DNA of 64,000 nt. Source: Streptomyces sp. NBC_01669. GTDB lineage: Bacteria > Actinomycetota > Actinomycetes > Streptomycetales > Streptomycetaceae. The stretch spans positions 1,488,001-1,552,000 of the forward strand of contig NZ_JAPEQG010000001.1 of assembly GCF_026339735.1 (NCBI RefSeq). Direction: 5' to 3'. Position 1 is the first letter of the stretch. Every line of letters begins with the position of its first letter. Both the position numbers and the translations under genes were made by a program. Of the stretch, positions 71 through 22,414 are shown one piece after another. The notes beneath the pieces were generated by a model. It was not told the origin of the DNA. It ran no database searches and saw only the letters and a list, made by a program, of their open reading frames with translations.

Positions 71-1390
71 CTATCGCGCGGCCGCCGGCCTCGTGAGGAC
101 CCGCTCCAGAACCACGTACGCGACCACGGCCACGACGAGGCCGCTCACTGCGTCCGAGAACTGCGGCGCATACCAGTGCACGAGCCCGCCCACCATGGCG
201 CCGGCGGCCCACGCGGCGAAGGCCGTGGGCCGTACGGCAGTGGTGGGGCGCCGGTCGACGCGGCTGCGCAGAATCACCTGATCGGCGATGAGCACGCCGC
301 CGAGGGGCGGGACGAAGACGCTGAGGACGACCAGCCAGTCGAGGAAGTGGTCCCATACGCCGGCGAGGGCGGCGGCAGTGCCGATGATGCCCAGGACGAG
401 GGTCGTGATCCGCATCTTGGTACGGGTCAGGTGCGACCAGCTGAGCGCCCCGTTGTAGAGGCAGTGGCTGCACACCGAGCCGAGGTTGACGAAGACGAAC
501 ACGGCAGCGAGGGCGTCGAGGAGGAGGCCGTGGTCACCGGTGAGGATCGGCAGGAAGTTGCCGCCGACCGTGGCTGCGGAGGCGATGGCACCGGCCGCGA
601 CGACAATGCCGCCGGTGATCTGGGCGACCATGCTGGCCAGCGGGAACGCGGTCGCGGTGGCGAGGACGGCCTGCTTGCCGTTCTTGGACCATCGGGTGAA
701 GTCGGCGGTCATCGTGCCCGAGTCGGCGAACGTCGCCATGATGAGCGACACGGCCGCGCCGAACGTCATGGCGCTGTCCGGTGCGACGCCCTGGTAGTCG
801 AGCACCGCACCCAGGCTGTGGTCCCGGGACACGATGACGATGGCTATCAGGCCGACGATGACGAACAGCGGCGCGGCGACGGCACCGAGCCACGACAGGG
901 CACGGATACCGAGATAGGTGATCGCGACGAAGGCCGCGCCCGCGAGTACGGCGACGAGTTGTTCGTGCCAACCGAAGGCCTGGTTGAGGGTCGCTCCGGT
1001 GGCACCGGTGTTGAAGGCGAACCAACCCACGACGATCGTGGCCAGGAAGCCGGAGGCGACGACATGACCGACGCGGCCGAAGGTCTTCGTTGCCTGGAGG
1101 GCGAAGTTCTCGCCGGTGCTGCCCGCTCGATAGCTGAGCAGACCGACGTACACGAACATGACGAGGTTGGCGACGAGGACGGCGGCCAGCCCGCGCCAGA
1201 AGCCCAGGACGGCGACGACGACCCCGCCGGGTACGGCGTTGGTGAGGATCATCGGGAATCCGAACCACACGGCCGACACGGTCAGGAGGGACTTACGCCG
1301 TTCCTGGGGAACGGGGCTGTGCTCGTACTCCGAGTCGAGCTCTGTGCTCGGGTGCGCGGCATCGGCCGCGACGGGTATACGACTGTCCAT
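71..1390 (-). CDS. CodB-like NCS1 nucleobase/allantoin-type permease
   Basis: The 439-residue protein is almost entirely hydrophobic, with about twelve membrane segments, as expected for the nucleobase:cation symporter-1 family. The cytosolic N-terminus carries SPVPQ (residues 25-29) and the middle carries SGTMTADFTRW, both close to E. coli CodB. The family imports cytosine, uracil, allantoin, hydantoins or related rings; the substrate cannot be read from sequence. ATG at 1388-1390 is preceded by GGAGA. It is the last gene of the minus-strand DUF2877-FdrA-DUF1116 operon, separated from it by a long stem-loop. By context it most likely imports the compound that the carbamoyl-transfer enzymes and amidohydrolases consume. 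Confidence 0.85.
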   Translation of the reverse strand: MDSRIPVAADAAHPSTELDSEYEHSPVPQERRKSLLTVSAVWFGFPMILTNAVPGGVVVAVLGFWRGLAAVLVANLVMFVYVGLLSYRAGSTGENFALQATKTFGRVGHVVASGFLATIVVGWFAFNTGATGATLNQAFGWHEQLVAVLAGAAFVAITYLGIRALSWLGAVAAPLFVIVGLIAIVIVSRDHSLGAVLDYQGVAPDSAMTFGAAVSLIMATFADSGTMTADFTRWSKNGKQAVLATATAFPLASMVAQITGGIVVAAGAIASAATVGGNFLPILTGDHGLLLDALAAVFVFVNLGSVCSHCLYNGALSWSHLTRTKMRITTLVLGIIGTAAALAGVWDHFLDWLVVLSVFVPPLGGVLIADQVILRSRVDRRPTTAVRPTAFAAWAAGAMVGGLVHWYAPQFSDAVSGLVVAVVAYVVLERVLTRPAAAR

Positions 1391-1411
1391 GGGCGAGTCT
1401 CCGAGGTGGGG

Positions 1412-1477
1412 CAGGTCCTGTCGTCCCACTCCCGTGGTCGCCGGGAGGGCGGACGGGAGTGGGACGACAAGGACCTG
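1412..1477. terminator. Long intercistronic stem-loop
   Basis: Positions 1412-1435 pair with 1453-1477 over 24 base pairs with a single bulged base and a 17-nt loop. It sits between the DUF1116 stop (1486) and the permease start (1390). There is no T-run, so it could be an attenuating terminator, an RNA-processing or stability element that lowers permease expression relative to the enzymes, or an operator. Confidence 0.6.
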
Positions 1478-1485
1478 GCGCGTGG

Positions 1486-2913
1486 TCAGATGAGGGAGTC
1501 GGCGAGGGCCTTGGCGGCCTTCTCGAAGGCCTCGACGGGCGGGTGTGTGATGCCGGCGCCGATCATGCCGATGCCCGCTTCCTTGTGGGCGATCGCGGTG
1601 TTGATGACCGGCAGGATCCCGGTGGCCAGGACCTTGCGTACGTCGATCCCGGTGGGGATGCCCTGGAAGTCGAGCATGGGGATGGTGACGTTGGGGTTCT
1701 GTGCCGTGGTGATCTCGCCCATCTGGCGTGTGAAGCCGATGGCCTCCTGCACGGTGCCGCCGACGAGGGCCACGATGGCGGGCGCGGTGGCCATGGCGAA
1801 GCCGCCGAAGCCGTAGGTCTCGCTGATCGCGCTGTCGCCGATGTCGAGGCCGGAGTCCTCCGGCTTGTATCCGGCGAACATCGGGCCGACGACCTTTTGG
1901 GCGGGCCCGGTGAACCATTGGTTTCCGCCCAGGCCACTGACCCGTACGCCGAACTCGACGCCGTTTCGGGCCATCGTGGTGACGATGGTCGAGCCCTCGA
2001 TGCCATGGGCCGCGTCCATGGCGGCCTTGGCCATGGCCAGCCACGTCGGGCCGGAGAAGTAGTCCGAGCTGGCGATGAAGTCGAAGACTTCCTTCTTCTG
2101 CTCGGTGGTGAAGCCGGTCTGCAGCAGGGACGGGGCGAGCGCCTGCAGGAGCAGCAGGGTGCCCGCGATATTGCGGTTGTGGCACTCGTCGCCCATGTGC
2201 AGCGCCTGCGAGAGCAGCAGCCGCAGATCGACGGGGCCGCCGATCTCCATGGCTTCCTTGAGCATGGGGCCGAGCACGTCGCGCATCCAGACGAGCCGCT
2301 CGATCACCGACTCGTCGTTCGCCCCCATGCGGAGGATCTTCGCCATCTGCTCGGACAGGTTGGTGTACGCCGTGTTGCCGTACGTCTCGTTGTGGACGAT
2401 GTGCATGTACATCGACGCGGAGGTGACTCCGGCCATCGAGCCGACGCAGTCGTGCTCGTGGCACGGCGAGAAGGTGATCTCACCGGAGGCGGCGAGTGCG
2501 GCGGCCCCTTCCAGGTCGGCGGCGAGGCCCTCGAAGACGAGCGCACCGGTGACGGCGCCCTTCATCGCTCCGGCCATGCGGTCCCAGGTGATGGGCGGTC
2601 CCGCGTGCAGGATCGTCGTCGGGGTCATGCCGGGTACGACGTCGATGGCGCGGCCGAAACCGGTCAGCATGGGCTGCGAGTCGGCGATCCGTTCGACGGC
2701 GAGGGCGTTGGCCTCCCCGATCCGCGCGGCAACCTCCGGGACCTCCAGGGCGTCGAGGGCGGCGAGGATCTCGGGCTTGCCTCCACCCGGCGGCGTCCAG
2801 TCGAGCGTGGTGACCTTGGCGCCCTGGGCGGCGATGTCCTCGTCGAACATGGCCAGACCGACGTTGACGACGTCGAGGTCGCTCTCGAAGAGGCTGGTGA
2901 TGCGGTTGCTCAT
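1486..2913 (-). CDS. DUF1116 protein (YahG/YlbE family), carbamoyltransferase component
   Basis: The 475-residue protein matches the DUF1116 family of E. coli YahG and YlbE (AllG) in length and sequence character. In E. coli the AllF (FdrA), AllG (YlbE) and AllH (YlbF) proteins together form oxamate transcarbamylase, which phosphorolyses a carbamoyl compound to carbamoyl phosphate. The same three families are encoded side by side here, so this is probably a subunit of such a complex. The start overlaps the stop of the FdrA gene as ATGA (2910-2913), indicating translational coupling and equal stoichiometry. Whether the substrate is oxamate or another carbamoylated compound is not known; no oxalurate-forming gene is visible. 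Confidence 0.82.
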   Translation of the reverse strand: MSNRITSLFESDLDVVNVGLAMFDEDIAAQGAKVTTLDWTPPGGGKPEILAALDALEVPEVAARIGEANALAVERIADSQPMLTGFGRAIDVVPGMTPTTILHAGPPITWDRMAGAMKGAVTGALVFEGLAADLEGAAALAASGEITFSPCHEHDCVGSMAGVTSASMYMHIVHNETYGNTAYTNLSEQMAKILRMGANDESVIERLVWMRDVLGPMLKEAMEIGGPVDLRLLLSQALHMGDECHNRNIAGTLLLLQALAPSLLQTGFTTEQKKEVFDFIASSDYFSGPTWLAMAKAAMDAAHGIEGSTIVTTMARNGVEFGVRVSGLGGNQWFTGPAQKVVGPMFAGYKPEDSGLDIGDSAISETYGFGGFAMATAPAIVALVGGTVQEAIGFTRQMGEITTAQNPNVTIPMLDFQGIPTGIDVRKVLATGILPVINTAIAHKEAGIGMIGAGITHPPVEAFEKAAKALADSLI

Positions 2914-4454
2914 GCGTGCTTGACCTTCCGGGCTAGGGCACGGGCGAACTGGCCCGTCTCGGTGCTGCTGCGGGTGACGGTGACGCCGGCTGCCTGCAGG
3001 GCGGCGATCTGGTCGGCCGGCGCCGGGGTGTCGAGGTCCGTGCCCAGGACGTAGCCGACGATCTCCAGGTGGCGGCCCGCTTCGGCGGCGATCCCCTTGG
3101 CCTGCTCGATGGCCGGCAGGGTGACGCCGACCGGGTCCTCGTGGGCGCCGAAGCCGAGGACGAAGTCCATGACGACGGCGGCGACCTCCGGGTCCTTGGC
3201 CTCCTCTACCAGGCGGGCCAGCCGCAGGGAGGGGTCGATCATGGGGTGCGGGCGGCCGTTGGTGAAGTCGTCGTCACCGAAGTCGAGGAAGGTGTGCCCC
3301 GTGCTGGGGCTGTCGGCTGTCAGCCGGCGCCCGGGGTCCTTCTGGATGTTGCTCCATACGTCGTCGCCGCTCTCGAGCATCGCGTACATCGACTCGTCGC
3401 ACAGGGTGCCGCCGCAGAACAGGCCGCGTACGAACCGCTGTTCCGGCTTGAAGAGAGCGGCGACCTCGTCGATCCGGCGCGTGTCGAGCGGCTCGACTGC
3501 CGCGTCCGGGTTCACGCCGAGACGTACCGCCTGCAGGGCGGCGTCCTGGCTGCCGGACGCGAAGTGTCCGCCGGCCGCGACGACCGCTTCTTCGGAGCCT
3601 CCGACGAAGTAGACGACGACGGGCTTGCCCGCGGTGGCGATCTCGGCAAGCACCTTCTTCTCGACCGAGGGGGCCGGCGGCTTGGAGACGAGCACGATCA
3701 CGCTGGTGGCCGGGTCGGCAGCGAACGCCCGGATGCCGTCGATCATCATGATGCCGCCGACCTGCTCGCTCAGGTCGCGACCGCCGGTGCCGATGAGCTG
3801 CGAGACACCCGCGCCCAGGGCGTGGATGCGGACGCTGACCTCCTGCGCGCCTGTGCCCGATGCGGCGACCACGCCGACCGAGCCGGGGCGGACGGCGTTG
3901 CCGAAGCACAGGGCGACATTGTTGATGATCGCGGTGCCGCAGTCCGGGCCCATCATCAACAGGCCCTTTTCGTGGGCCAGTTCCTTGAGGGCGACCTCCT
4001 CCTCGACCGGGACGTTGTCGCTGAAGAGCAGTACGTGCAGGTCATTCTCAAGGGCCTTGCGGACCTCACGGCCGGCGTAGGCGCCGTTGACCGCGATCAC
4101 GGCGAGGTTGGCGGCCGGGTTGTCCTGCGCGGCGGCCGCGATGGTCCGGTGGGTGATGGTCGCCTCGCCCGTGGCGGACGCCTTGCGCTGGAGGAGCTCC
4201 TCGACACGCGCGAGGACCTCGTCGGCGCCGGCTCCCTCGCGGGCTTCGACCACGACCATGAGGTCGCCGTTGCCCGCGGCCTCGAGTTCGGGTGTGAGCA
4301 GGCCGAGGTTGCCCAGCACCCCCTTGTTCATCTCCGTGCCCATGGCCACGAAGGCCTGCTTAACCTCGTCGAGGCTGTTCGCCTTCGTCGAGATGGCCAT
4401 CAGGGATACAGAGTCGAAGTAGGTGTTCTTCTTGACGACTGCTGTGATGCTCAC
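2910..4454 (-). CDS. fdrA: FdrA/YahF-family protein (succinyl-CoA-synthetase-like fold)
   Basis: This 514-residue protein belongs to the FdrA family, which resembles acyl-CoA synthetase (ADP/GDP-forming) alpha-type CoA-binding and ligase domains. Recognisable family segments are MGPDCGTAI, VVAASGTGAQEV, IGTGGRDLSEQVGG and the C-terminal FLDFGDDDFTNGRPHPMID. E. coli YahF is nearly the same length. FdrA (AllF) is a component of E. coli oxamate transcarbamylase. I chose GTG at 4452-4454 because it overlaps the DUF2877 stop as GTGA and begins the conserved N-terminus; the frame is open further upstream only inside the neighbouring gene. It is central to the inferred carbamoyl-phosphate-forming complex. 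Confidence 0.85.
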   Translation of the reverse strand: MSITAVVKKNTYFDSVSLMAISTKANSLDEVKQAFVAMGTEMNKGVLGNLGLLTPELEAAGNGDLMVVVEAREGAGADEVLARVEELLQRKASATGEATITHRTIAAAAQDNPAANLAVIAVNGAYAGREVRKALENDLHVLLFSDNVPVEEEVALKELAHEKGLLMMGPDCGTAIINNVALCFGNAVRPGSVGVVAASGTGAQEVSVRIHALGAGVSQLIGTGGRDLSEQVGGIMMIDGIRAFAADPATSVIVLVSKPPAPSVEKKVLAEIATAGKPVVVYFVGGSEEAVVAAGGHFASGSQDAALQAVRLGVNPDAAVEPLDTRRIDEVAALFKPEQRFVRGLFCGGTLCDESMYAMLESGDDVWSNIQKDPGRRLTADSPSTGHTFLDFGDDDFTNGRPHPMIDPSLRLARLVEEAKDPEVAAVVMDFVLGFGAHEDPVGVTLPAIEQAKGIAAEAGRHLEIVGYVLGTDLDTPAPADQIAALQAAGVTVTRSSTETGQFARALARKVKHA

Positions 4455-5389
4455 AGCGAACCTCGCAGTTCTCTCTCCAGGTGAAGCCCGGCCACCAGAC
4501 CGGACAAGGTGTCGGTGCCGGAGGTGTGGCCGTGGGCCAACGCGCGGCGGACCGGGGCTCGGACGGTTTCGATCGCCTGCACTTCGCTCTGCCCGGGGGT
4601 TGCGGCCAGGGAGCACAACACATCAACCAGTTCGGCGCGGAAGCGTCCTGACAGTGCCTCACGCAGGGTGGTCGTACTCAACAGCGTCGTACGGCCGGGC
4701 TGCTCGTCGAGTACGTCGTGGAGTACCCGGGCGAACAAACCGAGCCCGCTGCCGTCGAGCGACGACAGCAGGGCGATGGCGGTGAGGAAGTCGTCGCCGG
4801 CCGGGGTGAGTCCGGGGCCGAGGCCCAGGAGGGCGAGGACAGCGTCGCGCATGCCGACGGTGTCAGAGGAGCGTACGGCCCGCACCAGCGCATCGCGTCC
4901 GTGCTCCAGCGCCGTGCAGACAGCCACCTCCATCGGCGCAGCACCCGGCGAAGCGCCGAGCATCCCACCGGGCTCGCCGTCGACGGACACCAGGTGGTGC
5001 AGGGCCCGGGCCGAAACTGCCAGCTCTGACGGCGTCAGGGAGTCAAGACGCGGCAGAATGGGATGCCATTTTATGGCCCCCCGCACGGAGACCCGAAGGC
5101 CACCGAAAGCGCCCTGCAGGGCGATGCCGTCCGGGCCGAACTCGACGGCCCGACCCGCTTCCACCCCACGGTCGAGCCAGTGCGCGATGTCCACGACAAG
5201 GGTCCGGGGAGCGTCCCCACTCCCCCGCACAGCCAGCGCCATCAGCCCGCCATCCGGCAACAACAGGTTGATCACGCCCCGAAAGACGCTCTCCACACTC
5301 CCGCACCCCCTGAGCGTGCGCAGGTGCGCCAGGAGCACGGCATCACCGGAACACGGGCGCAGAAGCGTAGTCGCGCTCACCGATACCAC
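4451..5389 (-). CDS. DUF2877 protein (YahE/YlbF family), carbamoyltransferase component
   Basis: The protein carries the family signature GLGPGLTPAGDDFLTA in its second half and matches DUF2877 proteins such as E. coli YlbF (AllH) and YahE. AllH is the third component of oxamate transcarbamylase. The frame is open to an ATG at 5464, but that start overlaps the GntR-type palindrome; GTG codons at 5392, 5389 and 5380 just downstream of AGGAGG (5394-5399) are better starts, and I give 5389 (about 312 residues) with 5380 as the main alternative. First gene of the operon, divergent from carbamate kinase across a 112-bp region with the operator, so both transcripts are probably co-regulated. Confidence 0.8.
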   Translation of the reverse strand: MVSVSATTLLRPCSGDAVLLAHLRTLRGCGSVESVFRGVINLLLPDGGLMALAVRGSGDAPRTLVVDIAHWLDRGVEAGRAVEFGPDGIALQGAFGGLRVSVRGAIKWHPILPRLDSLTPSELAVSARALHHLVSVDGEPGGMLGASPGAAPMEVAVCTALEHGRDALVRAVRSSDTVGMRDAVLALLGLGPGLTPAGDDFLTAIALLSSLDGSGLGLFARVLHDVLDEQPGRTTLLSTTTLREALSGRFRAELVDVLCSLAATPGQSEVQAIETVRAPVRRALAHGHTSGTDTLSGLVAGLHLERELRGSL

Positions 5390-5453
5390 CACCCCTCCTG
5401 TCCGACCGGACCGCCAGGGCGCGCTGCGCCCCTTAACCTCAACCACTGGAGAC

Positions 5454-5463
5454 TGGTATACCA
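5454..5463. promoter_or_regulatory. GntR-type palindromic operator, site 1
   Basis: TGGTATACCA is a perfect 10-bp palindrome in the divergent region between the DUF2877 operon and carbamate kinase, 38 bp before the carbamate kinase ATG. Near-identical sites occur at 7261-7270, 14091-14103 and 14178-14189. The likely ligand is the GntR/FCD protein encoded at 6573-7232. Confidence 0.72.
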
Positions 5464-5501
5464 TTTTGCAGCCGGAAGCGAACTAGTCGGAGGAGGAGTC
5501 C

Positions 5502-6431
5502 ATGCGCATCGTCGTGGCTCTCGGAGGCAACGCGTTGGCACGGCGAGGCGAGCCGATGACGGCGGACCATCTGCGTGCGAACGTCAGGGCATCCTGTGAG
5601 GCACTCGCCGGACTCGCCGGCGAGCACGAGGTGGTCATCACCCATGGCAACGGCCCGCAGGTGGGCCTGCTCGCCCTGCAGAACCTGGCCTACCAGGACG
5701 TCGCTGCGTACCCGCTCGACATATTGGGCGCGGAGACACAGGGCATGATCGGGTACGTCATCCAGCAGGAGCTCTCCAACGCACTGGGTGGCCGGCGCGA
5801 GGTCGCGGCGGTCCTCACGACCACCGAGGTCGACGAGTCCGATCCCGCGTTCAGCCACCCCACCAAGCTGATCGGCCCCATGTACTCCGCCCACGACGCC
5901 GCCGACGCGGCGGCCGAGTACCGGTGGACCATCGCGCGTGACGGCGCAGGCTTCCGCCGCGTCGTCCCCTCGCCCCACCCGTTGCGCATCGTGCAGGCCC
6001 CCCTCGTCCGCACCCTCCTGGAGAACGACCGGCTCGTCGTGTGCGTCGGCGGTGGCGGTGTGCCCGTGAAGACCGACAGCAAGGGCCGCCAGACCGGTCT
6101 GCAGGCGGTCGTCGACAAGGACCTCGCCAGCGCCGCCCTCGCCGCCGAACTCAAGGCGGACATGCTGGTCATGCTCACGGACGGCGACTACGTCAGCGAG
6201 AACTGGGGGACGCCCGAGCAGCGGGACATCCTCACGGCCTCACCGGAAGCCATCTCCGAGCTGGCTTTCGCCGAAGGGTCGATGAAGCCGAAGGTGGATG
6301 CCGCGGTGCGGGTCGCGAAGGCCGGCGGACGCGCGCTCATCGGCCCGCTGGACCGCCTGGACGACCTCCTGGCGCGACGGGTCGGCACGGAGATCCGCTC
6401 CGATGTCGCCGATGGGATCGTCTTCGTCTGA
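5502..6431 (+). CDS. arcC: Carbamate kinase
   Basis: This 309-residue amino-acid-kinase-fold enzyme transfers phosphate between carbamoyl phosphate and ADP, giving ATP plus carbamate (which falls apart to ammonia and CO2) in the catabolic direction. Visible family motifs are the N-terminal ALGGNAL, HGNGPQVG, the nucleotide-site VDKDLASAALA and the metal-site LTDGDYVSENWG. A strong GGAGGAGGAG precedes the ATG. It is divergent from the DUF2877-FdrA-DUF1116 operon and shares its operator. E. coli encodes carbamate kinase paralogues (YahI, AllK) beside the same three families, so this enzyme most likely harvests ATP from the carbamoyl phosphate they make. No arginine deiminase genes are nearby. 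Confidence 0.93.
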   Translation: MRIVVALGGNALARRGEPMTADHLRANVRASCEALAGLAGEHEVVITHGNGPQVGLLALQNLAYQDVAAYPLDILGAETQGMIGYVIQQELSNALGGRREVAAVLTTTEVDESDPAFSHPTKLIGPMYSAHDAADAAAEYRWTIARDGAGFRRVVPSPHPLRIVQAPLVRTLLENDRLVVCVGGGGVPVKTDSKGRQTGLQAVVDKDLASAALAAELKADMLVMLTDGDYVSENWGTPEQRDILTASPEAISELAFAEGSMKPKVDAAVRVAKAGGRALIGPLDRLDDLLARRVGTEIRSDVADGIVFV

Positions 6432-6572: not shown

Positions 6573-7232
6573 CTACTCCTTGGAGGACCGCAGATGGGCC
6601 GCAGCCGCGCTGCGGCCCATCTCCAGGTGCTTCAGCACGAGCTCCTCGACGCGCGGCACGTCCCGCGCCACGATCGCGTCGTAGAGATTCTCGTGCTCCC
6701 TCGCCACACCCAGCAGGTCGTCGTGCCGGCTGAGCAGCCAGCGCATGCGGCTGCGAAGGGTGCGCTCCAGCTCGCTCAGCAGCTCGTTCGCGGCCAGTGA
6801 CGTCACTGTCTCGTGGAAGTCGGCCGCGGCGCGCCTCGCCTGTACGGCGTCTCCGCGCTGCGCCGCCTCCAGCTCGGCATCGAGGTCGGCGCGCAGCTTC
6901 TCCAGCCCCGCGCGGGTACGCCGCTGAGCCGCCAGCCGGAACGTCAGCGTCTCCAGCGCGGAACGCACCTCGCCCAGGTCCGAGACGTCGGTGGGGCTGA
7001 ACTCCCGCACCACCGCCCAGGTCCGCGGCCGGGGCGTCACAAGGCCCTCCGTCACCAGTGCCTTCAGGGCATCGCGGATGGGCAGCCGGCTCACTCCGAG
7101 CTCGGCGGCCAGCTCACGCTCGACGAGCTTGCTGCCGGGCCGACGCACACCATCGAGAATGTCGTCGCGCAACTGACGAGTGACCCGATCCGACTCGGGC
7201 TCGAAGCCTTCAGAACCTGCCATGCCGCTCAT
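6573..7232 (-). CDS. GntR-family regulator with FCD domain
   Basis: The 219-residue protein has an N-terminal winged helix-turn-helix (about residues 15-75, with GVSRLPIRDALKAL as the recognition region) and an alpha-helical FCD effector domain, typical of FadR/VanR-subfamily repressors that sense organic acids. ATG at 7230-7232 is used; an in-frame ATG at 7221-7223 is possible. A TTGGTATACC site lies about 30 bp upstream of the start, suggesting autoregulation, and the same palindrome controls the flanking carbamoyl operon and the amidohydrolase at 12778-14049. It is therefore the probable local repressor of the island, released by a pathway intermediate. Confidence 0.88.
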   Translation of the reverse strand: MSGMAGSEGFEPESDRVTRQLRDDILDGVRRPGSKLVERELAAELGVSRLPIRDALKALVTEGLVTPRPRTWAVVREFSPTDVSDLGEVRSALETLTFRLAAQRRTRAGLEKLRADLDAELEAAQRGDAVQARRAAADFHETVTSLAANELLSELERTLRSRMRWLLSRHDDLLGVAREHENLYDAIVARDVPRVEELVLKHLEMGRSAAAAHLRSSKE

Positions 7233-7260: not shown

Positions 7261-7270
7261 TTGGTATACC
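7261..7270. promoter_or_regulatory. GntR-type operator, site 2
   Basis: TTGGTATACC keeps the full GGTATACC palindromic core (7263-7270) and lies 30 bp upstream of the GntR gene start, where an autorepressor would bind. Confidence 0.65.
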
Positions 7271-7301: not shown

Positions 7302-8210
7302 TCAGGAGGGTGTGTAGCCCCGCTCCCGCACCAGGCGGCTCGCGAGCCGGGTGAAGGCCCGAGCCGCCGCACTCTGGTACGCGCTGTCGCGGCGCAGGAG
7401 AGTCACTCGACGCGCGGGCAGGGGCGGATCGAGGGCGATCGTTGTGAGGTGCGGATGGTCGTGCGTGATGGCGTCCGGCAGCACCGTGGCCAGCAAGGGG
7501 GTGCGCTGCACGATCTCGATGAGGGCCTGAATGGAGTTGGCCTCCACGGCGATGGGCGGGTTGATGCGGTGCTCGGTGAAGTAGCTGTCGATGTGTCCGC
7601 GCGTGACGAAGTCATTGCTGAGCAGCGCGAGACGCTGCTCGGCCAACCTGCTGGGCGGCATCGGCTCCCGCGCCGCGGAATCCGCGTCATGGGCCGCGAC
7701 GACCAGGCTCAGGGTCTCGGTGAACAAGGCGTGTGCGCTGATGCCGGCGGGATGTGGCGCCTCGAACGCGATCCCCAGGTCGATCTCGTCCGCCAACAGG
7801 CTTGCCTCGATGCGATCCTGTGTCATCTCCCGCACTTCCAGGGTGATCCCGGGATGGCGGGTGTGCAGCTCCTGCACCAGCGGGCCGATGAGGTAGGCCG
7901 TAAACGTCGGTGTCATCGCCAGCCGCAGCCGGCCCCGGGACAGGTCTGCCACGTCGAGTACGGCACGGTCGGCCGCCGCGAGGTCCCGCAGAGCCCGCCT
8001 GGCGTAGTGCACATAGGCGTCGCCGGCGTCCGTGAGCCGGACACTGCGGCCGCTGCGGTCGAGCAGTTGGACGCCGACCACTCGCTCCAGCTGCTTGACC
8101 TGCTGGGACAGCGTGGGCTGAGAGATGCGCAGCTCCTCGGCGGCGCGGGTGAAGTTGCCGTGCTCGGCTACCGCGATCAGGTAGCGGAGGTGGCGTAGCT
8201 CGGGACCCAT
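7302..8210 (-). CDS. cynR: LysR-family regulator, probable CynR
   Basis: The 302-residue protein has the LysR N-terminal helix-turn-helix (residues about 4-62, including RISQPTLSQQVKQLE) and a C-terminal substrate-binding fold. ATG at 8208-8210 begins the conserved 'ELRHLRYLIAVAEHGNFT' segment. It is divergent from cynT-cynS, the same arrangement and similar length as E. coli CynR (about 299 residues), which activates the cyn operon in response to cyanate. The 288-bp intergenic region holds an ATAGAT-GTC-ATCTAT palindrome and two ACTATAGGTG copies as candidate binding sites. The assignment as CynR rests mainly on context. Confidence 0.8.
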   Translation of the reverse strand: MGPELRHLRYLIAVAEHGNFTRAAEELRISQPTLSQQVKQLERVVGVQLLDRSGRSVRLTDAGDAYVHYARRALRDLAAADRAVLDVADLSRGRLRLAMTPTFTAYLIGPLVQELHTRHPGITLEVREMTQDRIEASLLADEIDLGIAFEAPHPAGISAHALFTETLSLVVAAHDADSAAREPMPPSRLAEQRLALLSNDFVTRGHIDSYFTEHRINPPIAVEANSIQALIEIVQRTPLLATVLPDAITHDHPHLTTIALDPPLPARRVTLLRRDSAYQSAAARAFTRLASRLVRERGYTPS

Positions 8211-8381
8211 GGCCCGAACTATAGGTGTGGGGGCACGGTCCCTCCTGGTCAGGACTTCCCGTCGGCTGCGGCCTTCCCCGGGCGTTCGGTGGCGTCCCCC
8301 CGCGCCTACGCGATCCCCGTCATGCCACGCACCGTACGAACGACCGCTGGCACTCGGCCCTGCACACCCGCCGGCACGCAC

Positions 8382-8396
8382 ATAGATGTCATCTAT
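8382..8396. promoter_or_regulatory. Candidate CynR-binding palindrome
   Basis: ATAGAT and ATCTAT arms with a 3-base spacer form a 15-bp inverted repeat, 102 bp before the cynT ATG, in the size and symmetry typical of LysR boxes. The sequence ACTATAGGTG also occurs twice in the same intergenic region, at 8218-8227 beside cynR and 8424-8433 nearer cynT. Confidence 0.45.
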
Positions 8397-8498
8397 AGCA
8401 GGCATGGATATCAAGTCTTGGACACTATAGGTGCGGTTCATGCATGGTGAATGACGTCGGCCCGCAAGGGCGGCCGGCCACCCGAGGGGAGTGAACGA

Positions 8499-9113
8499 AT
8501 GCACCATCTGTCAGCCGGCATCGCGCATTTCCGCCGTGCCGTGTTTCCCGCCAAGCAGCAGCTTTTCGCCCACCTGGCCACGCATCACCGGCCTGAGACG
8601 CTGTTCATCGGCTGCTCCGACGCCCGGGTGACTCCCGAGCTCATCACGCAGAGCGAACCGGGCGAGCTGTTCGTCATCCGGACCGCGGGCAATCTGGTTC
8701 CCGCCTACGCGCCTGGCGCGGACGGTGTCGCAGCGAGCATCGAGTACGCCGTTGCCGTACTCGGTGTGACCGACATCGTCGTGTGCGGTCACTCGGCCTG
8801 CGGTGCGATGACCGCCCTGGCCGAGGGGCACGACCTGAGCGCGGCCCCGGTGATCGCGGACTGGCTGCGGCATGCGGACGCGGCCCGCGCCAGGGCTCGG
8901 GCGACCGCGGCTCCCGCCGCATCGGCCGAGTCCAGGGTGACCACCCTCGTACGCGCGAATGTGGTCGCCCAGCTGCAGAACCTGCGCACCCACCCCTCGG
9001 TGGCCCGCGCGCTCGCCGAGCAGCAACTCTCGCTGCATGGCTGGATGTTCGACATCGCGTCCGGGTCGGTCGAGACGCTCGACGACGTCGATCGCGCCTC
9101 CGCGGCGGCCTGA
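8499..9113 (+). CDS. cynT: Beta-class carbonic anhydrase, CynT type
   Basis: The 204-residue enzyme interconverts CO2 and bicarbonate. Zinc and active-site residues are visible at C39, D41, R43 (GCSDARVTPE), H98 and C101 (CGHSACGAM), the same numbers as recalled for E. coli CynT. I chose ATG at 8499 with an upstream GAGGGGAG; a longer frame from 8451 lacks conservation. Located 78 bp before cyanase, it should retain bicarbonate, which cyanase consumes with cyanate, and so prevent CO2 loss during cyanate breakdown. The C-terminal residues are alanine-rich and slightly shorter than the E. coli protein. Confidence 0.92.
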   Translation: MHHLSAGIAHFRRAVFPAKQQLFAHLATHHRPETLFIGCSDARVTPELITQSEPGELFVIRTAGNLVPAYAPGADGVAASIEYAVAVLGVTDIVVCGHSACGAMTALAEGHDLSAAPVIADWLRHADAARARARATAAPAASAESRVTTLVRANVVAQLQNLRTHPSVARALAEQQLSLHGWMFDIASGSVETLDDVDRASAAA

Positions 9114-9191
9114 CGCCCGGCCGGTCCGTTCCCGCTCTCCCCCTCACCTGCCGCGCCTCCCCCGGGCCGGCGCCTAGGAAAGGAAACCCTC

Positions 9192-9662
9192 ATGATTCAC
9201 GCCCAGTTCTCCCCCACCGCCCGTGAGGCCGTGTCCGTGGCCGCTGTTGCGGCCAAGACCAGCAAGGACCTGACGTGGCAGGAGATCGCCGACGCGGCCG
9301 GTCTGTCCGTGGCCTTCGTGACGGCCGCCGTACTGGGCCAGCACGCGCTGCCCGAGGACTCCGCCAAGGCGGTCGGCAAGCTCCTCGACCTCGACGAGGA
9401 CGCGGTGCTGCTCCTGCAGACCATCCCGACCCGTGGCTCCATCCCCGGCGGCATCCCGACCGACCCGACGATCTACCGCTTCTACGAGATGCTCCAGGTC
9501 TACGGCACCACCCTCAAGGCCCTGGTCCACGAGCAGTTCGGCGACGGCATCATCAGCGCGATCAACTTCAAGCTCGACGTGAAGAAGGTCGCCGACCCCG
9601 AGGGCGGCGAGCGGGCCGTCATCACCCTGGACGGTAAGTACCTGCCGACCAAGCCTTTCTGA
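9192..9662 (+). CDS. cynS: Cyanate hydratase (cyanase)
   Basis: Cyanase converts cyanate plus bicarbonate to carbamate and CO2, carbamate then giving ammonia and CO2. The protein is 156 residues, the family length, with a helix-turn-helix-like N-terminal half and the C-terminal catalytic domain. The catalytic triad is present as R96, E99 (YRFYEM) and S122 (GDGIISAIN), matching E. coli numbering. An AGGAAAGGAAA ribosome site precedes the ATG. It follows cynT in a probable two-gene operon. In this neighbourhood a relevant internal cyanate source is spontaneous decomposition of carbamoyl phosphate made by the FdrA/DUF1116/DUF2877 system. Confidence 0.96.
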
Positions 9663-9836: not shown

Positions 9837-10334
9837 ATGGACTTCGCGCAGCGCACCATCGAGCTCGCCCGCCAGAACGTCGAAGAGGGCGGACGCCCCT
9901 TCGCCACCGTCATCGTCAAGGACGGAAAGATCCTCGCCGAGAGCGGAAACAAGGTCGCGCAGACCTCCGACCCAACCGCACACGCGGAGATCCTCGCCAT
10001 CCGCGAGGCCTGCACCAGGCTCGGCACCGAGCACCTGACCGGCAGCACGATCTACGTGCTCGCCCACCCATGCCCCATGTGCCTGGGCTCGCTGTACTAC
10101 TGCTCGCCGGACGAGGTCGTCTTCCTGACCACCCGCGACGCCTACGAGCCGCACTACGTGGACGACCGGAAGTACTTCGAGCTCGACACCTTCTACGGCG
10201 AGTTCGCCCGCGACTACACCGAGCGCCGACTGCCGATGCGGTACGACCCGCAGGACTCCGCCGTCGACGTCTACCGGCTGTGGCAGAAGCACAACGGCGG
10301 CAGTCGACGGATCGAGGGCGCACCCACCGCCTGA
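9837..10334 (+). CDS. guaD: GuaD-like nucleobase deaminase (CDA fold)
   Basis: The 165-residue protein has the zinc-deaminase signature TAHAEI (His ligand and catalytic Glu) and PCPMCLG (two Cys ligands), and its overall length and C-terminal part resemble small bacterial guanine deaminases such as Bacillus GuaD. The family deaminates guanine to xanthine, and relatives act on other amino-substituted rings. ATG at 9837 follows GGAGGACCCC. It stands after the cyn operon, before a lipoprotein gene, in an island with a nucleobase-type permease and two amidohydrolases, so a ring-deamination step feeding this pathway is plausible. The exact substrate cannot be deduced, and the guaD symbol is by homology only. 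Confidence 0.78.
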   Translation: MDFAQRTIELARQNVEEGGRPFATVIVKDGKILAESGNKVAQTSDPTAHAEILAIREACTRLGTEHLTGSTIYVLAHPCPMCLGSLYYCSPDEVVFLTTRDAYEPHYVDDRKYFELDTFYGEFARDYTERRLPMRYDPQDSAVDVYRLWQKHNGGSRRIEGAPTA

Positions 10335-10362
10335 ACGATTTGGTCAACCACCACAGCGCCGT

Positions 10363-10412
10363 CCGCCCCGCCGGCGGGGCGGTCCCGCCCTGACTGCCCG
10401 GAGGGACCGCCC
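10363..10412. terminator. Palindromic hairpins in the 323-bp gap after the deaminase
   Basis: CCGCCCCGCC and its complement form a perfect 20-bp palindrome at 10363-10382, and GGGCGGTCCC (10377-10386) can alternatively pair with GGGACCGCCC (10403-10412). Either would terminate the deaminase transcript. The rest of 10335-10657 shows no gene or repeat that I recognise and presumably carries the promoter of the lipoprotein. Confidence 0.55.
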
Positions 10413-10657
10413 CCTGCGAGCGAGTCGCGGAACGATGAGCGCCCACGTCCCCCGCATCAACCGATCGGCTGACCCGCGGGTCGTCCCCACGTCCCCTCAT
10501 CTCCAACCGGTTCAGCGACGACGGAGGCCTATGCGCGGACCGAGCATGGACCGTACTGCCCCTCGCACCCACGCCCCGGTCACCGAAGCACTCCGCCACC
10601 CCAGCTCCAAGGACGTCACCCACCACAGCTCCCCCACCGCACCGAAAGAGGAACCCC

Positions 10658-11449
10658 ATGGCCTCTCTGGGCCGCACCACCCGCCTGTTCGTCTCCCTCG
10701 CCGGCCTGGCCGTACTCGCGACCGCGTGCAGCACGCAGTCCGACGGTGACGCCTCCGCCCGGCAGAAACCGTCGGCGGGCAGGACCGACTCCGCATCCCC
10801 CAAGGACAAGGTCGAACGCTCGGCCTCCCCCAAGCGTTCGGCCGCCGACCCGGCCGCGAGCCGGGACCTGCTCGAAGGCGCACGTTCCGGTGACGCCGAC
10901 GCCATACGCAGCGCGATCAAGCGGGGCGCGGACCTGGAGACGCGCGACAGCGACCGTCGCACCCCGCTGCTCCTCGCGGCCACCGGCGACCATGTGGAGG
11001 CGGCCGAGGTACTCGTCGAGGCGGGCGCGGACCCCGATGCCCTGGACCGGCAGCACGACACCCCCTGGCTGGTGACCGGAGTGAGCGGCAGCGCCGCCAT
11101 GGCCCGCACCCTGGCGAAGGCCGACCCCGACTACACCATCGTCAACCGGTACGGCGGCACGTCCCTCATCCCGGCCGGCGAGCACGGTCACGTCGACTAC
11201 ATCCGGGAGGTCACCACCAACCCGGACATCGACGTCGACGTCGACGTCAACCATGTCAACAACCTCGGCTGGACCGCCCTCCTGGAGGCCGTCATCCTCG
11301 GCGACGGCGGAGAGGACCACCAGGAGTCCGTGAAGCTCCTCCTGGACGGAGGCGCGGACAGGTCCATCGCGGACAAGTCCGGCACGACGGCGCTCGAGCA
11401 CGCCGAGGAGCGCGGCTACGACGAGATCGCCCGACTGCTGCGCAAGTGA
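10658..11449 (+). CDS. Ankyrin-repeat lipoprotein
   Basis: The 263-residue protein begins with a signal peptide ending in a lipobox-like LATAC (Cys about 24), so it should be lipid-anchored outside the membrane. A charged, Ser/Lys/Asp-rich linker (to about residue 65) leads to four or five ankyrin repeats, seen as repeated 'DxxxRTPLLLAATGDHVEAAEVLVEAGAD'-like periodicity. Ankyrin repeats mediate protein contacts; such proteins in streptomycetes are often linked to catalase or stress functions, but no partner is obvious here. A GACGTC hexamer is repeated at 11231-11248 inside the coding sequence. ATG follows GAGGAA. It is convergent with the broken amidohydrolase. Confidence 0.8.
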   Translation: MASLGRTTRLFVSLAGLAVLATACSTQSDGDASARQKPSAGRTDSASPKDKVERSASPKRSAADPAASRDLLEGARSGDADAIRSAIKRGADLETRDSDRRTPLLLAATGDHVEAAEVLVEAGADPDALDRQHDTPWLVTGVSGSAAMARTLAKADPDYTIVNRYGGTSLIPAGEHGHVDYIREVTTNPDIDVDVDVNHVNNLGWTALLEAVILGDGGEDHQESVKLLLDGGADRSIADKSGTTALEHAEERGYDEIARLLRK

Positions 11450-11473
11450 CGCACCGCCTGCCGCAGCATGCGA

Positions 11474-12739
11474 CTACAGACGGTCTTGGACCAGCTTTCC
11501 GTCGCGGGCGACGACCCGGCCGCCATGGACGACCAGGTCACGGGTGGGCATGTCCACCACGACCTGCGGCAGCCCTTCTCCGCGTACGAGGATGAAGTCG
11601 GCCGGCGAGCCGGGCCGCAGGTCGGCCCGGTCCAGACCCATCACCTCGGCGCCGCCGTACGCGCCCGCCTCGAAGCAGTCCGTCAGCTCCTGGTCCAGGC
11701 GCACGCCGGTCACCCAGCCCAGGATGTGCGCACGGTGCAGCATGTCGGCGTTCCCGAACGGGCTCCACGAGTCGCGCACCCCGTCCGAGCCCAGACCGAC
11801 CCGTACACCGTGCTCACGGAGCTTGGCGACCGGCAGCACCAGCGACGCACTCGGCGCGACAGTCGTCAGCGAGATGTCGAGGTCGGCCAAGTCCTTTGCA
11901 ATACCTGTCAGTTCACTGTCGGACAGGGACGGCAGGCAGAAAACATGGCTGACGGTGACCCTGCCGCGCAGGGACAGCGCCCGGGTGCGGTCGATGATGC
12001 CGCGCAGGACCGGCATGCCCTTGTCGCCGCGGTCATGGAGGTGGATGTCCACCCCGACGCCGTAGCGGTCGGCGAGACCGAAGACCAGGTCCAGCTGCTC
12101 GTCCATGGCGTTGTCGAAGCTGATCGGGTCGATGCCGCCGATGAAGTCCACGACCCCGCTGCGGACCGCCTCCTTGAGCAGGTCCGCGGTACCCGGTGTG
12201 CGGATGACACCGTGCTGCGGGAACGCCACCGTCTACACATCCAGGGCATGCTTCAGGCGCTCACGAGCCTCGGCGAGCCCTTCCACGCACGCCAGCCCGT
12301 AGGCCGGGGCGACATCCGCGTGCGCACGCATCGCACGGGTGCCTCGAGTCACCGCGTGGGCCATCAGGCCGTACGCCCGCTCCCCCACCGGACGCCGCTG
12401 GCTGCGGAACAACTCCGCGTCCTGCTCGGCAAGTTCGGCGATCGAACCGGCCGGTTTGCGCGACACCCACTCACCACCCCATGTCGTCTTGTCCGGGTGA
12501 ATGTGCGCATCCACCAAGGACGGCAGGGCGATCCGGCCGTCACCGTCGATCACATCGGCCCCCGCAGGAGCCGCACCCTCGCCGATCCGGCCGTCGACCA
12601 CGACCAGATCCACCGGCTCGCGCGCCCCGAAGGGCCGCACATTGCGGAAGACCACGTCCCTCAGCGGTCTTGTCCCGGCGTCGGCGCGAGCCGATGTGGA
12701 TGCCGTGGACGGGTCGGCCGCTGAGGTACGGGACGTCAT
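11474..12739 (-). pseudogene. YahJ-like metal-dependent amidohydrolase, broken by in-frame TAG
   Basis: The N-terminal part (12739 to 12236) carries the metal-site LVDAHIHPDKT and the C-terminal part (12232 to 11477) begins at VAFPQHG and carries DIHLHD, SHVF and GLGSDGVRD. Both resemble E. coli YahJ, a cytosine-deaminase-like amidohydrolase of the yah operon. The two halves are in the same frame, separated only by TAG at 12233-12235, most simply explained as a CAG to TAG change. Full length would be about 421 residues. A GTG at 12227-12229 could restart the second half, but neither half has a complete metal centre. It lies 38 bp after the Tat amidohydrolase. Sequencing error or readthrough are alternatives. 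Confidence 0.8.
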
Positions 12740-12777
12740 GTGCGAGGACTCCTTGGGGTCGAGTGAGTGCAGCGGGG

Positions 12778-14049
12778 TCAGAGCGGGAGGCCCTGTCGGA
12801 CGACGCGGACCGGCGTCTTGAGAAGGGACACATCCTTGTGCGGGTCACCGGACAGGAGGACGGCATCACCGCTGAATCCGGGGGCCAGCCGGCCCAGGGT
12901 CCGCTCCTGGCCGAGGAGTCGGGCAGCGGACGTGGTCGCCGTACGGATGGCGTCCAGCGCGGACAGGCCGGACTCCTTCATCAGCTCCACCTCCCGGCCG
13001 ATGGGGCGGACCCGGCCGCCGGAGGAGTCGGTGCCTGCCGCCAGCGGTACGCCCATCTCGTGCGCGTCAAGCACGGCACGCTTGAGTACGGGCAGGTAGG
13101 TGCGCCCGCGCTCGGCCAGGATCGGGTTGTCGGAGTCGGCGAGCCCGGCGATGGCCGTGAGGGTGGGGGTGAAGTACGTGCCCCGGCGGCGCATTTCGTG
13201 GAGCGTGTGCTCCCCGACGAAGACGCCGTGCTCCAGGGAGCGGATGCCCGCGGTCACGGCGTCGTGGCAGCCCTGGCGGCTATAGCTGTGGCAGAGGACA
13301 CCCTTGCCGCCACGCCGTGCGGCGGACACGATCTCGGACAGCTGCTCGTACGAGTACACCTGTGCGAGCGGGTCCTGCTCGGGCAGGCCGGCGCGTTCGT
13401 TGACGCGGGTCTTGATCACGTCGGCGCCACGGGAGAGGTTCACCTCGACCACGCGGCGCAGCGCCTCGGCCGACCGCACGCCGTCCTTCAGGCGGGCCAG
13501 GGGGGTGAGGTCCGGGTCGGCGAGAATCGTGTCGCCGAGGTCGGGCGTGACGAAGACGCCCGCGGCGCTGAGCCTGGGCGCCGATTCAGGCAGCCGACGG
13601 GCCAACTCCCGTACGGCGATGTCCTGGTAGAAGTTGGTGGAGCCACTGCGTGCGCTGGTCGCGCCCTGGCGGACTGCGTCCCGTGCCTCGGCGACGGTGT
13701 TGATGTGGATGTGCGCGTCCACCAGACCGGGCAGCACCCAGCGACCCTGTGCGTCGAGGCGCGGCAGGCCGTCCGGCGTGTCCACACGACCGCGGGCCCC
13801 GGCTGCACGTACCACTCCGCCGCGGATCACGACGACCGCGTCCTCGGTGACCTCACCGGTCTTCGGGTCGAGCAGCGTGCCGCCCTCGATGATCAGGTCC
13901 CCGGTGCGCTGGGCGCCCTTCGGGGTGGCACCCAAGGCCTGGGGCGCGGCACTGAGCGCGGCGGCGGTGCCGGCCAGGGCGGCGGCACCGGCCAGCACTC
14001 CGCGACGGGTGACCCGGCTCGAGGGGGGTGGGACTGACTCGACACACAT
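12778..14049 (-). CDS. Tat-exported amidohydrolase (imidazolonepropionase/prolidase-like)
   Basis: This 423-residue protein starts with a twin-arginine signal (SSRVTRRGVLAG, then an Ala-rich hydrophobic stretch), so it is probably folded and exported or lipidless in the periplasmic space. The amidohydrolase barrel shows DAHIH (first metal pair), GVLCHSYSRQG, SLEHGVF and AGTDSSGG (last Asp ligand). Relatives cleave imidazolone, dipeptide or cyclic amide bonds; the substrate is unknown. I chose ATG 14047-14049 because an AGGAG precedes it and the Tat signal begins there. Two GntR-type palindromes lie 42 and about 130 bp upstream, placing it and the YahJ-like gene behind it in the GntR regulon. 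Confidence 0.83.
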   Translation of the reverse strand: MCVESVPPPSSRVTRRGVLAGAAALAGTAAALSAAPQALGATPKGAQRTGDLIIEGGTLLDPKTGEVTEDAVVVIRGGVVRAAGARGRVDTPDGLPRLDAQGRWVLPGLVDAHIHINTVAEARDAVRQGATSARSGSTNFYQDIAVRELARRLPESAPRLSAAGVFVTPDLGDTILADPDLTPLARLKDGVRSAEALRRVVEVNLSRGADVIKTRVNERAGLPEQDPLAQVYSYEQLSEIVSAARRGGKGVLCHSYSRQGCHDAVTAGIRSLEHGVFVGEHTLHEMRRRGTYFTPTLTAIAGLADSDNPILAERGRTYLPVLKRAVLDAHEMGVPLAAGTDSSGGRVRPIGREVELMKESGLSALDAIRTATTSAARLLGQERTLGRLAPGFSGDAVLLSGDPHKDVSLLKTPVRVVRQGLPL

Positions 14050-14090: not shown

Positions 14091-14103
14091 TTTGTATACC
14101 AAA
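14091..14103. promoter_or_regulatory. GntR-type operator, site 3
   Basis: TTTGTATACCAAA differs at one position from the TTGGTATACCAA consensus of sites 1, 2 and 4 and lies 42 bp upstream of the Tat amidohydrolase start. Confidence 0.65.
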
Positions 14104-14177: not shown

Positions 14178-14189
14178 TTGGTATACCCA
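14178..14189. promoter_or_regulatory. GntR-type operator, site 4
   Basis: TTGGTATACCCA keeps the GGTATACC core and lies 75 bp beyond site 3, upstream of the same amidohydrolase. It is enclosed by a CTTCGA / TCGAAG inverted pair (14161-14166, 14192-14197). Two sites at one promoter suggest cooperative binding or looping. Confidence 0.6.
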
Positions 14190-22292: not shown

Positions 22293-22414
22293 CCTGCGAA
22301 TTTTCACGTTCTGTAGACCGTCACGCTGCGTTGTCAGTGGCGGGATCTAGTGTGGCAGCACTGATCGAGAAGCCCGCCGCAAGCGGGCTGTCCGGATGTG
22401 AAGGGGGCGGGCCG

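Follow-up and report, generated by a model that had tools for sequence, protein, structure and literature searches.

A Streptomyces counterpart of the E. coli yah operon, predicted to split an acylurea into an amide and carbamoyl phosphate

A stretch of 64,000 nucleotides from Streptomyces sp. NBC_01669 (contig NZ_JAPEQG010000001.1, positions 1,488,001 to 1,552,000), here called the window, carries at 71-6431 a set of genes related to the AllFGH enzyme and carbamate kinase of E. coli. A chain on the minus strand runs from AllH through AllF and AllG to a CodB-like NCS1 permease, the carbamate kinase gene is divergent, and the chain and the kinase have a common GGTATACC operator. The core features of the locus, which we call yah-type for reasons given below, are:

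71..1390, minus strand: CodB-like NCS1 permease (PF02133 72 bits, cut-off 23.5; 29% identity to E. coli CodB)
1486..2913, minus strand: AllG/YahG-type subunit (DUF1116), 475 amino acids, with an N-terminal junction domain of about 45 amino acids (PF06545 298 bits, cut-off 27)
2910..4454, minus strand: AllF/YahF-type subunit (FdrA), 514 amino acids (NF004760 471 bits, cut-off 433)
4451..5392, minus strand: AllH/YahE-type subunit (DUF2877) (PF11392 76 bits, cut-off 25; frame open to 5464)
5454..5462, no strand: palindromic operator TGGTATACC in the divergent AllH/carbamate kinase promoter, with the same site in relatives
5502..6431, plus strand: carbamate kinase (NF009008 422 bits, cut-off 361)

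A sequence-only reading of the window had named the DUF2877, FdrA and DUF1116 families, the CodB-like permease and the divergent kinase, and profile searches agree with it, placing all three subunits above cut-off and leaving the permease and kinase coordinates as they were. The two overlaps it reported are both in the DNA: ATGA joins AllF and AllG at 2910-2913, and GTGA joins AllH and AllF at 4451-4454. The NCBIfam cytosine permease model gives the permease 217 bits, under its cut-off of 326, TIGR00746 gives the kinase 353.2 bits, slightly below its cut-off of 358.25, and AllH (4451-5464) is without an NCBIfam model match. The AllH frame is open to 5464, but the true start is probably near 5380-5392, because the operator falls in that 5' part and 13 aligned Streptomycetaceae relatives mostly begin later. 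No aspartate or ornithine carbamoyltransferase domain (ATCase, OTCase or YgeW type) is among the Pfam and NCBIfam matches of AllF, AllG and AllH. A solved AllG-type structure exists (3clq).

The three subunit families and a carbamate kinase, AllK, are also found together in E. coli. The E. coli allFGH genes were published in 2024 as an oxamic transcarbamylase, which the available text of PMC11326118 describes as converting oxalurate and phosphate to oxamate and carbamoyl phosphate; the reaction is reversible, and the assay was run in the carbamoylating direction. The sequence-only reading had named AllFGH with AllK as an oxamate transcarbamylase, and the activity is indeed in print, but oxamate is the catabolic product and oxalurate the substrate. 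It had also proposed that the streptomycete locus is the equivalent of allFGHK, and here the comparison points elsewhere. The window AllG shares 73% of its residues with YahG and 46% with AllG of E. coli, and AllF is 60% identical to YahF and 37% to E. coli AllF. AllH is 27% identical to YahE, and its 34% identity to E. coli AllH extends across 126 residues only. In a 51-row AllG tree, the window and 21 yah-type rows from Actinomycetota, Bacillota and Pseudomonadota form one clade with support 100/100, while the AllD-linked clade (E. coli AllG, E. faecalis, L170 and L173; also 100/100) excludes the window AllG. The AllD-linked set in this tree has 4 rows only, and the forks between clades are open. 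Judged by sequence, then, the locus corresponds to the yah operon of E. coli and not to its allFGHK genes.

To place the window among its relatives, 82 yah-type loci were compared: the best 80 of 403 confirmed stretches from a profile scan of genome contigs, in which close relatives were favored, plus the window and E. coli yah. They were drawn from Streptomyces, Bacillota and Proteobacteria, and several contigs end within the locus. Gene calls were made by our own script, checked on the window and on one further locus (L002), and proteins were clustered by single linkage. The junction domain of about 45 residues sits at the AllG N-terminus in all 81 yah-type AllG proteins and on none of the 82 yah-type AllF proteins. 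In E. coli AllF the same domain is at the C-terminus, and in the AllF-AllG fusions of L170 and L173 it lies in mid-protein; E. faecalis has an AllF-AllG fusion as well, of 1,003 residues (L203:7426-10437). In other clades the split between the two genes falls on one side or the other of the junction domain. Compared with E. coli AllFGH and AllK, the window belongs to another clade, has no AllD partner, and carries the junction domain on AllG rather than on AllF.

The likeness to the E. coli yah operon (yahB, yahDEFGHIJ) extends beyond the subunits to an ankyrin protein (38% identical) and an amidohydrolase (31%). The Streptomyces locus differs in having a GntR gene and an operator in place of the LysR regulator YahB, and a CodB-like permease where the E. 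coli K-12 operon has none; its kinase is nearer AllK (49%) than YahI (40%), and it has additional importers and amidohydrolases. We considered whether yahH of E. coli could be what remains of an NCS2-like permease, the kind that occupies this slot in relatives, but the best match had an E of 0.29 and the yahH reading is repetitive, so the idea was rejected.

The yah-type core is accompanied by a recurring neighborhood. Of the 82 loci, AllF is found in 82, AllG in 81, carbamate kinase in 72 and AllH in 68. Nucleobase-type permeases, which fall into three kinds, are present in 77: NCS2-like in 37, CodB-like in 22 and PucI-like in 22, with two kinds in 4 loci. The NCS2-like cluster is named a xanthine or AGZA-type permease by several sources, and the CodB-like permease keeps the same slot in 17 of 17 Streptomycetaceae loci. 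Accessory genes include an ankyrin protein (62 loci), a PucR regulator (38), a guanine-deaminase-like protein (29), a YahJ-type amidohydrolase (28) and an alpha/beta hydrolase (23); further neighbors are GntR (13), an M20 carbamoylase-like protein (12), a YahB-type LysR regulator (11) and CynRTS (3). The window holds the permease, ankyrin, guanine-deaminase-like and YahJ-type members of this association; the YahB-type LysR regulator is absent from its locus, with GntR in its place. Among 35 same-phylum AllG loci that belong to other clades, none had an ankyrin match. A twin-arginine translocation (Tat) signal was found on YahJ in 13 of the 28 loci with that cluster; in L088 and L102 the pattern hits precede the called start and were left uncounted. 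YahJ is listed among Tat substrates, with function unassigned, in the available text of PMC7549933. The system is rare in the genus group of the window, since AllG was found in 14 of 295 genomes. Beside the yah-type core at L036:3998-4477, with similar genes in L037 and L038, lies a gene for a small protein that scores weakly with the DarG ADP-ribosyl-glycohydrolase model (30 bits, cut-off 250).

The regulator, the further operator copies and the accessory genes of the window are:

6573..7232, minus strand: GntR/FCD regulator (PF00392, PF07729), in 13 of 17 Streptomycetaceae loci
7262..7270, no strand: operator copy directly upstream of the GntR gene, from motif search
7302..8210, minus strand: CynR-type LysR regulator (NF008416 431 bits, cut-off 277)
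8499..9113, plus strand: CynT-like carbonic anhydrase (PF00484; 53% to CynT)
9192..9662, plus strand: cyanase CynS (PF02560, PF21291; 72% to CynS)
9837..10334, plus strand: guanine-deaminase-like deaminase, TadA/GuaD superfamily (best solved relative guanine deaminase 1tiy, E 1.1e-25)
10658..11449, plus strand: YahD-like ankyrin-repeat protein with a lipobox-like N-terminus (PF12796; 38% to YahD)
11474..12655, minus strand: YahJ-type amidohydrolase (PRK05985), with an in-frame TAG at 12233-12235 (31% to YahJ)
12778..14049, minus strand: second amidohydrolase, Tat-like N-terminus (RRGVLAG), on the same strand as and upstream of the YahJ-type gene (PF01979 88 bits)
14092..14102, no strand: operator copy upstream of the second amidohydrolase, from motif search
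14179..14187, no strand: operator copy upstream of the second amidohydrolase, from motif search

The sequence-only reading had ended the system at 71-6431, and it is larger on both sides. On the right, the ankyrin, deaminase and amidohydrolase genes at 9837-14049 are part of the same yah association. On the left, the island extends about 18 kb beyond the window edge, to C3:1470203, under the same TGGTATACC operator: one operator place lies 9.2 kb outside that edge, flanked on one side by a PRK06151 amidohydrolase and on the other by an Opp-type importer with a YahJ-type gene behind it, and farther left are another YahJ-type gene and a second Opp-type importer. The two YahJ-type genes are at C3:1484850 and C3:1470203. 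Other Streptomycetaceae have similar flanks on the yah-type core: in L039 and L040 the first Opp importer is 76-82% identical and the YahJ-type protein is 74% identical in L040. In L060, parts of the second Opp importer (about 50%), YahJ-type (67%) and PRK06151 (57%) genes are present, and related neighbors also occur in L080 and L042. The YahJ-type protein has AtzC-type N-isopropylammelide hydrolases and cytosine deaminases as its best solved relatives, and the second amidohydrolase scores 162 bits with NF051886, under the cut-off of 500. The cynR-cynT-cynS genes at 7302-9662 are ordinary; cyn genes are also close to yah in E. coli, about 20 kb off. At 22331-26029 the window encodes a large protein with WGR and DUF4132 domains.

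The shared operator claimed by the sequence-only reading is present as TGGTATACC at 5454 and recurs at 7262, 14092 and 14179. The motif has 8 strand matches (4 sites) in the window, compared with a mean of 0.39 over 100 shuffles, none of which reaches 8. All 15 Streptomycetaceae loci that hold the kinase/AllH interval have TGGTATACC in it; in L084 the site falls within the called kinase frame, and L044 and L090 are without the interval. Across the 10.8 Mb of the genome, 9 places account for 11 strand matches of TGGTATACC, and 5 of the 11, at 4 places, are clustered within 23 kb at the island. The GntR/FCD protein is presumed to bind this operator. A pair of sites at C3:6547529-6547582 precedes a different GntR gene (37% identical) together with an MFS/Amdase/deacetylase set, and was left out as an extension of the regulon, as were single sites at 905324, 2729619 and 3362102, which are in or near unrelated genes.

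AllFGHK loci of other clades were examined for their partner enzymes. AllD-linked loci were found in E. coli, E. faecalis (L203), L170 and L173. An ankyrin protein and a YahJ-like amidohydrolase (36% identity with YahJ) are encoded in the E. faecalis locus too, a link between the accessory genes of the yah type and oxalurate-type chemistry. On the enterobacterial plasmid NZ_ON833286.1 (L204:2738-10381), an operon was found with the order cyanuric acid amidohydrolase (equivalog 581 bits, cut-off 360), NCS2 permease, AllH, AllF, AllG and carbamate kinase, which is possibly an ATP-yielding cyanurate route. This AtzD operon has the same core as the window and also a nucleobase-type permease, but its ring opener is a cyanuric acid amidohydrolase, and its AllG, 48% identical, is on another branch. 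Matches to the operon were found in 49 of 72,556 plasmid records, and 47 have at least 80% of it, and among the matches listed identity is at least 95%; several of these records are from showers or hospital samples. Across the same PLSDB records, an AllG homologue of any kind is present in 192, with 89 at 60-80% identity to the window AllG and 96 in Escherichia; some of those listed are chromosome-sized.

AtzD-type homologues, 46-48% identical to the L204 ring opener, are present in 10 of the 35 same-phylum AllG loci. The AtzD-type gene is upstream of AllFGHK in the actinobacterial loci L157, L158, L161, L162, L163, L165, L167, L171 and L172, and L155 is partial. In nine of the ten, a single strand carries the genes from the ring opener through AllG, with gaps of at most 406 bases. 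These homologues are candidate cyanurate or barbiturate ring openers. A CodA-like deaminase sometimes accompanies such loci. A second Streptomyces AllFGH type (L026, L028, L030, L031) has a carbamate kinase, an FmdA-like amidase, a CodA-like amidohydrolase, a DUF1097 membrane protein and a PucR regulator. The allFGHK clusters of nitrifiers (ammonia-oxidising archaea and comammox), as presented in the available text of PMC12625717, resemble the window in gene content, combining allFGHK with codB and a gntR gene; they differ in adjoining a biuret hydrolase. The authors of that work propose oxalurate use. Biuret is given as the product of cyanuric acid hydrolase in the available text of PMC5366886.

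Oxalurate, carboxybiuret, biuret and ureidomalonate (the barbiturase product) are all acylureas. The yah-type AllFGH, together with carbamate kinase and the CodB-like permease, is predicted from its families and neighbors to phosphorolyse an imported acylurea to carbamoyl phosphate, which on balance we think probable. AllFGH would convert an acylurea (R-CO-NH-CO-NH2) and phosphate to an amide and carbamoyl phosphate, from which carbamate kinase would yield ATP, ammonia and CO2. This matches the earlier idea of a carbamoyl-phosphate-yielding catabolic module, which the families of the subunits and kinase support. The YahJ-type amidohydrolases and guanine-deaminase-like protein would produce the acylurea by acting on a precursor that is cyclic or amino-substituted; these proteins and the nucleobase-type permeases also agree with the cyclic nitrogen precursor suggested by the sequence-only reading. 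In the lineages where YahJ has a Tat signal, and because it has one there, the precursor may be processed outside the cytoplasm before import. The permease would import the acylurea, with the two Opp-type importers left of the window also contributing in this genome, and the GntR protein would repress the regulon via TGGTATACC. The neighboring cyanase would remove cyanate from decaying carbamoyl phosphate. The available text of PMC6022934 puts the half-life of carbamoyl phosphate, which breaks down to cyanate, at about 5 min, and this is a plain reason for the cyn neighborhood. We infer the catabolic direction, the acylurea class and the roles of the neighbors.

The subunits themselves were compared by residue, with the window protein counted twice in the yah set and yah positions taken at 97% or more. 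Polar residues common to the yah-type, AllD-linked, AtzD-linked and Streptomyces type-B rows number 27 in AllG and 28 in AllF, so the catalytic set looks intact. Clade-fixed polar differences between the yah and AllD-linked sets, the latter of 4 rows only, number 18 in AllG and 2 in AllF, so the leaving group may differ. These sequence comparisons suggest one chemistry with an altered leaving-group pocket in the AllG of the yah type. An acyl-CoA synthetase role for FdrA, which has domain ancestry alone in its favor, was rejected as the AllFGH activity is published.

The genes of the known routes were looked for as clues to the substrate. The sequence-only reading had found no allantoin genes, which stands for the window but not for the genome, where an allantoinase is present at C3:2033783 (620 bits, cut-off 358). 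Its doubt about an allantoin-derived substrate fits the data: AllD has no match in the window's genome, with the E. coli control positive, and AllA, AllB, AllD, AllE, Gcl and GlxK have none in the 82 yah-type loci at E 1e-10. Of these loci, 12 have AllC-like proteins and 25 have AllW-like permeases. PF09663, the AtzD/TrzD ring opener, has no match in the window's genome under a search that finds it in L204. Among 24 yah-type genomes checked, AllD is above cut-off in 4, while a further 10 have weaker matches, and PF09663 is found in 1; the L203 and L204 controls were positive. Neither known ring route therefore feeds most of these genomes.

Among acylureas, oxalurate or a close analogue ranks first as the substrate, though only tentatively, and a biuret-type compound ranks second, as a weaker candidate still. 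The locus could also be a plain oxamate carbamoyltransferase, in which oxalurate, either taken up or derived from parabanic acid through an amidohydrolase, gives oxamate and carbamoyl phosphate as with E. coli AllFGH. The same families and the conserved polar residues suit this, as do the YahJ-like and ankyrin genes of the E. faecalis locus; E. faecalis oxamic transcarbamylase activity has been reported, and the title of a paper names parabanic acid as its inducer in a streptococcus. However, the yah type has a separate AllG clade, AllD is missing from its loci and from the window's genome and is scarce among the genomes checked, and E. coli K-12 keeps both allFGH and yahEFG, which speaks against identical jobs. 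We regard this explanation as doubtful. A cyanuric-acid-type route, in which the AtzC-like YahJ and the deaminase feed an AllFGH acting on carboxybiuret or biuret, draws on the AtzC-type relatives of YahJ and on the AtzD-AllFGHK operons of other clades, but the lack of PF09663 in the window's genome and in all but one of the genomes checked makes it unlikely.

N-carbamoyl amino acids and ring-opened pyrimidines or hydantoins, which the sequence-only reading had put forward, are similarly improbable as substrates. M20 carbamoylase-like neighbors, hydantoinase-superfamily amidohydrolases nearby and the three kinds of nucleobase-type permease would suit such compounds, but N-carbamoyl amines are poorer carbamoyl donors. 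By analogy, acylureas seem likelier than N-carbamoyl amino acids, since the AllFGHK sets of the other clades pair with enzymes of known acylurea products: AllD, AtzD-type proteins and, in the available text of PMC12625717, biuret hydrolase. Finally, the genes might serve synthesis, with the kinase supplying carbamoyl phosphate for the carbamoylation of a metabolite. The reversibility of the E. coli reaction and its assay in that direction, described in the available text of PMC11326118, speak for this, but the importer genes, the regulator-operator pair common to the core and amidohydrolases, and the catabolic-type kinase argue for breakdown, and no biosynthetic gene was recognized adjoining within 0-16 kb; we think this direction very improbable.

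Several observations weigh against acylurea phosphorolysis by the whole yah association. The 18 clade-fixed polar differences in AllG are one, and the M20 carbamoylase/allantoate-amidohydrolase-like neighbor in 12 of 82 loci is another. Among the 17 Streptomycetaceae loci, accessory genes occur only here and there (ankyrin in 4, deaminase in 1, YahJ-type in 5) and are therefore not obligatory there, and 14 of the 82 loci are without ankyrin, deaminase and YahJ-type genes, in some since the contig stops. Cyanase is linked in just 3 of 82. The window's own YahJ-type gene is split by the in-frame TAG, which may be a true mutation or a sequencing error. The genome total of TGGTATACC (11) is not above that of a reversed-pattern control (14), and only the clustering supports the operator. 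No tested activity of any yah-type member was found in the open-licence PubMed Central (PMC) literature searched. The gene set, families, common operator, clade and conserved neighbors are shown by the sequences themselves.

The AllFGH enzyme, the nitrifier allFGHK clusters and the yah genes are already in print. Among open-licence PMC papers, none was found to describe the yah-type clade, its common neighborhood or the AtzD-AllFGHK operon, and PMC12625717, as far as its available text goes, is the only one found that joins allFGH with biuret-type genes. The same literature gives no assigned function to the yah operon, which occurs in E. coli K-12 and many other bacteria. If yah is viewed as one clade among the recently reported AllFGH transcarbamylases, accompanied by conserved permease and amidohydrolase genes, it gains a short, testable list of substrates. 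More speculatively, AllFGHK may be an interchangeable, ATP-yielding engine for acylurea phosphorolysis that is set on varied partners (AllD for oxalurate, AtzD for cyanurate or barbiturate, YahJ with the guanine-deaminase-like protein), with the yah type salvaging oxidized-purine debris such as parabanate- or iminohydantoin-like compounds. If so, ATP would be gained at the last step of oxalurate, cyanurate and biuret-type breakdown, where hydrolytic routes gain none, and the plasmid version for cyanuric acid would bear on disinfectant and fertilizer residues.

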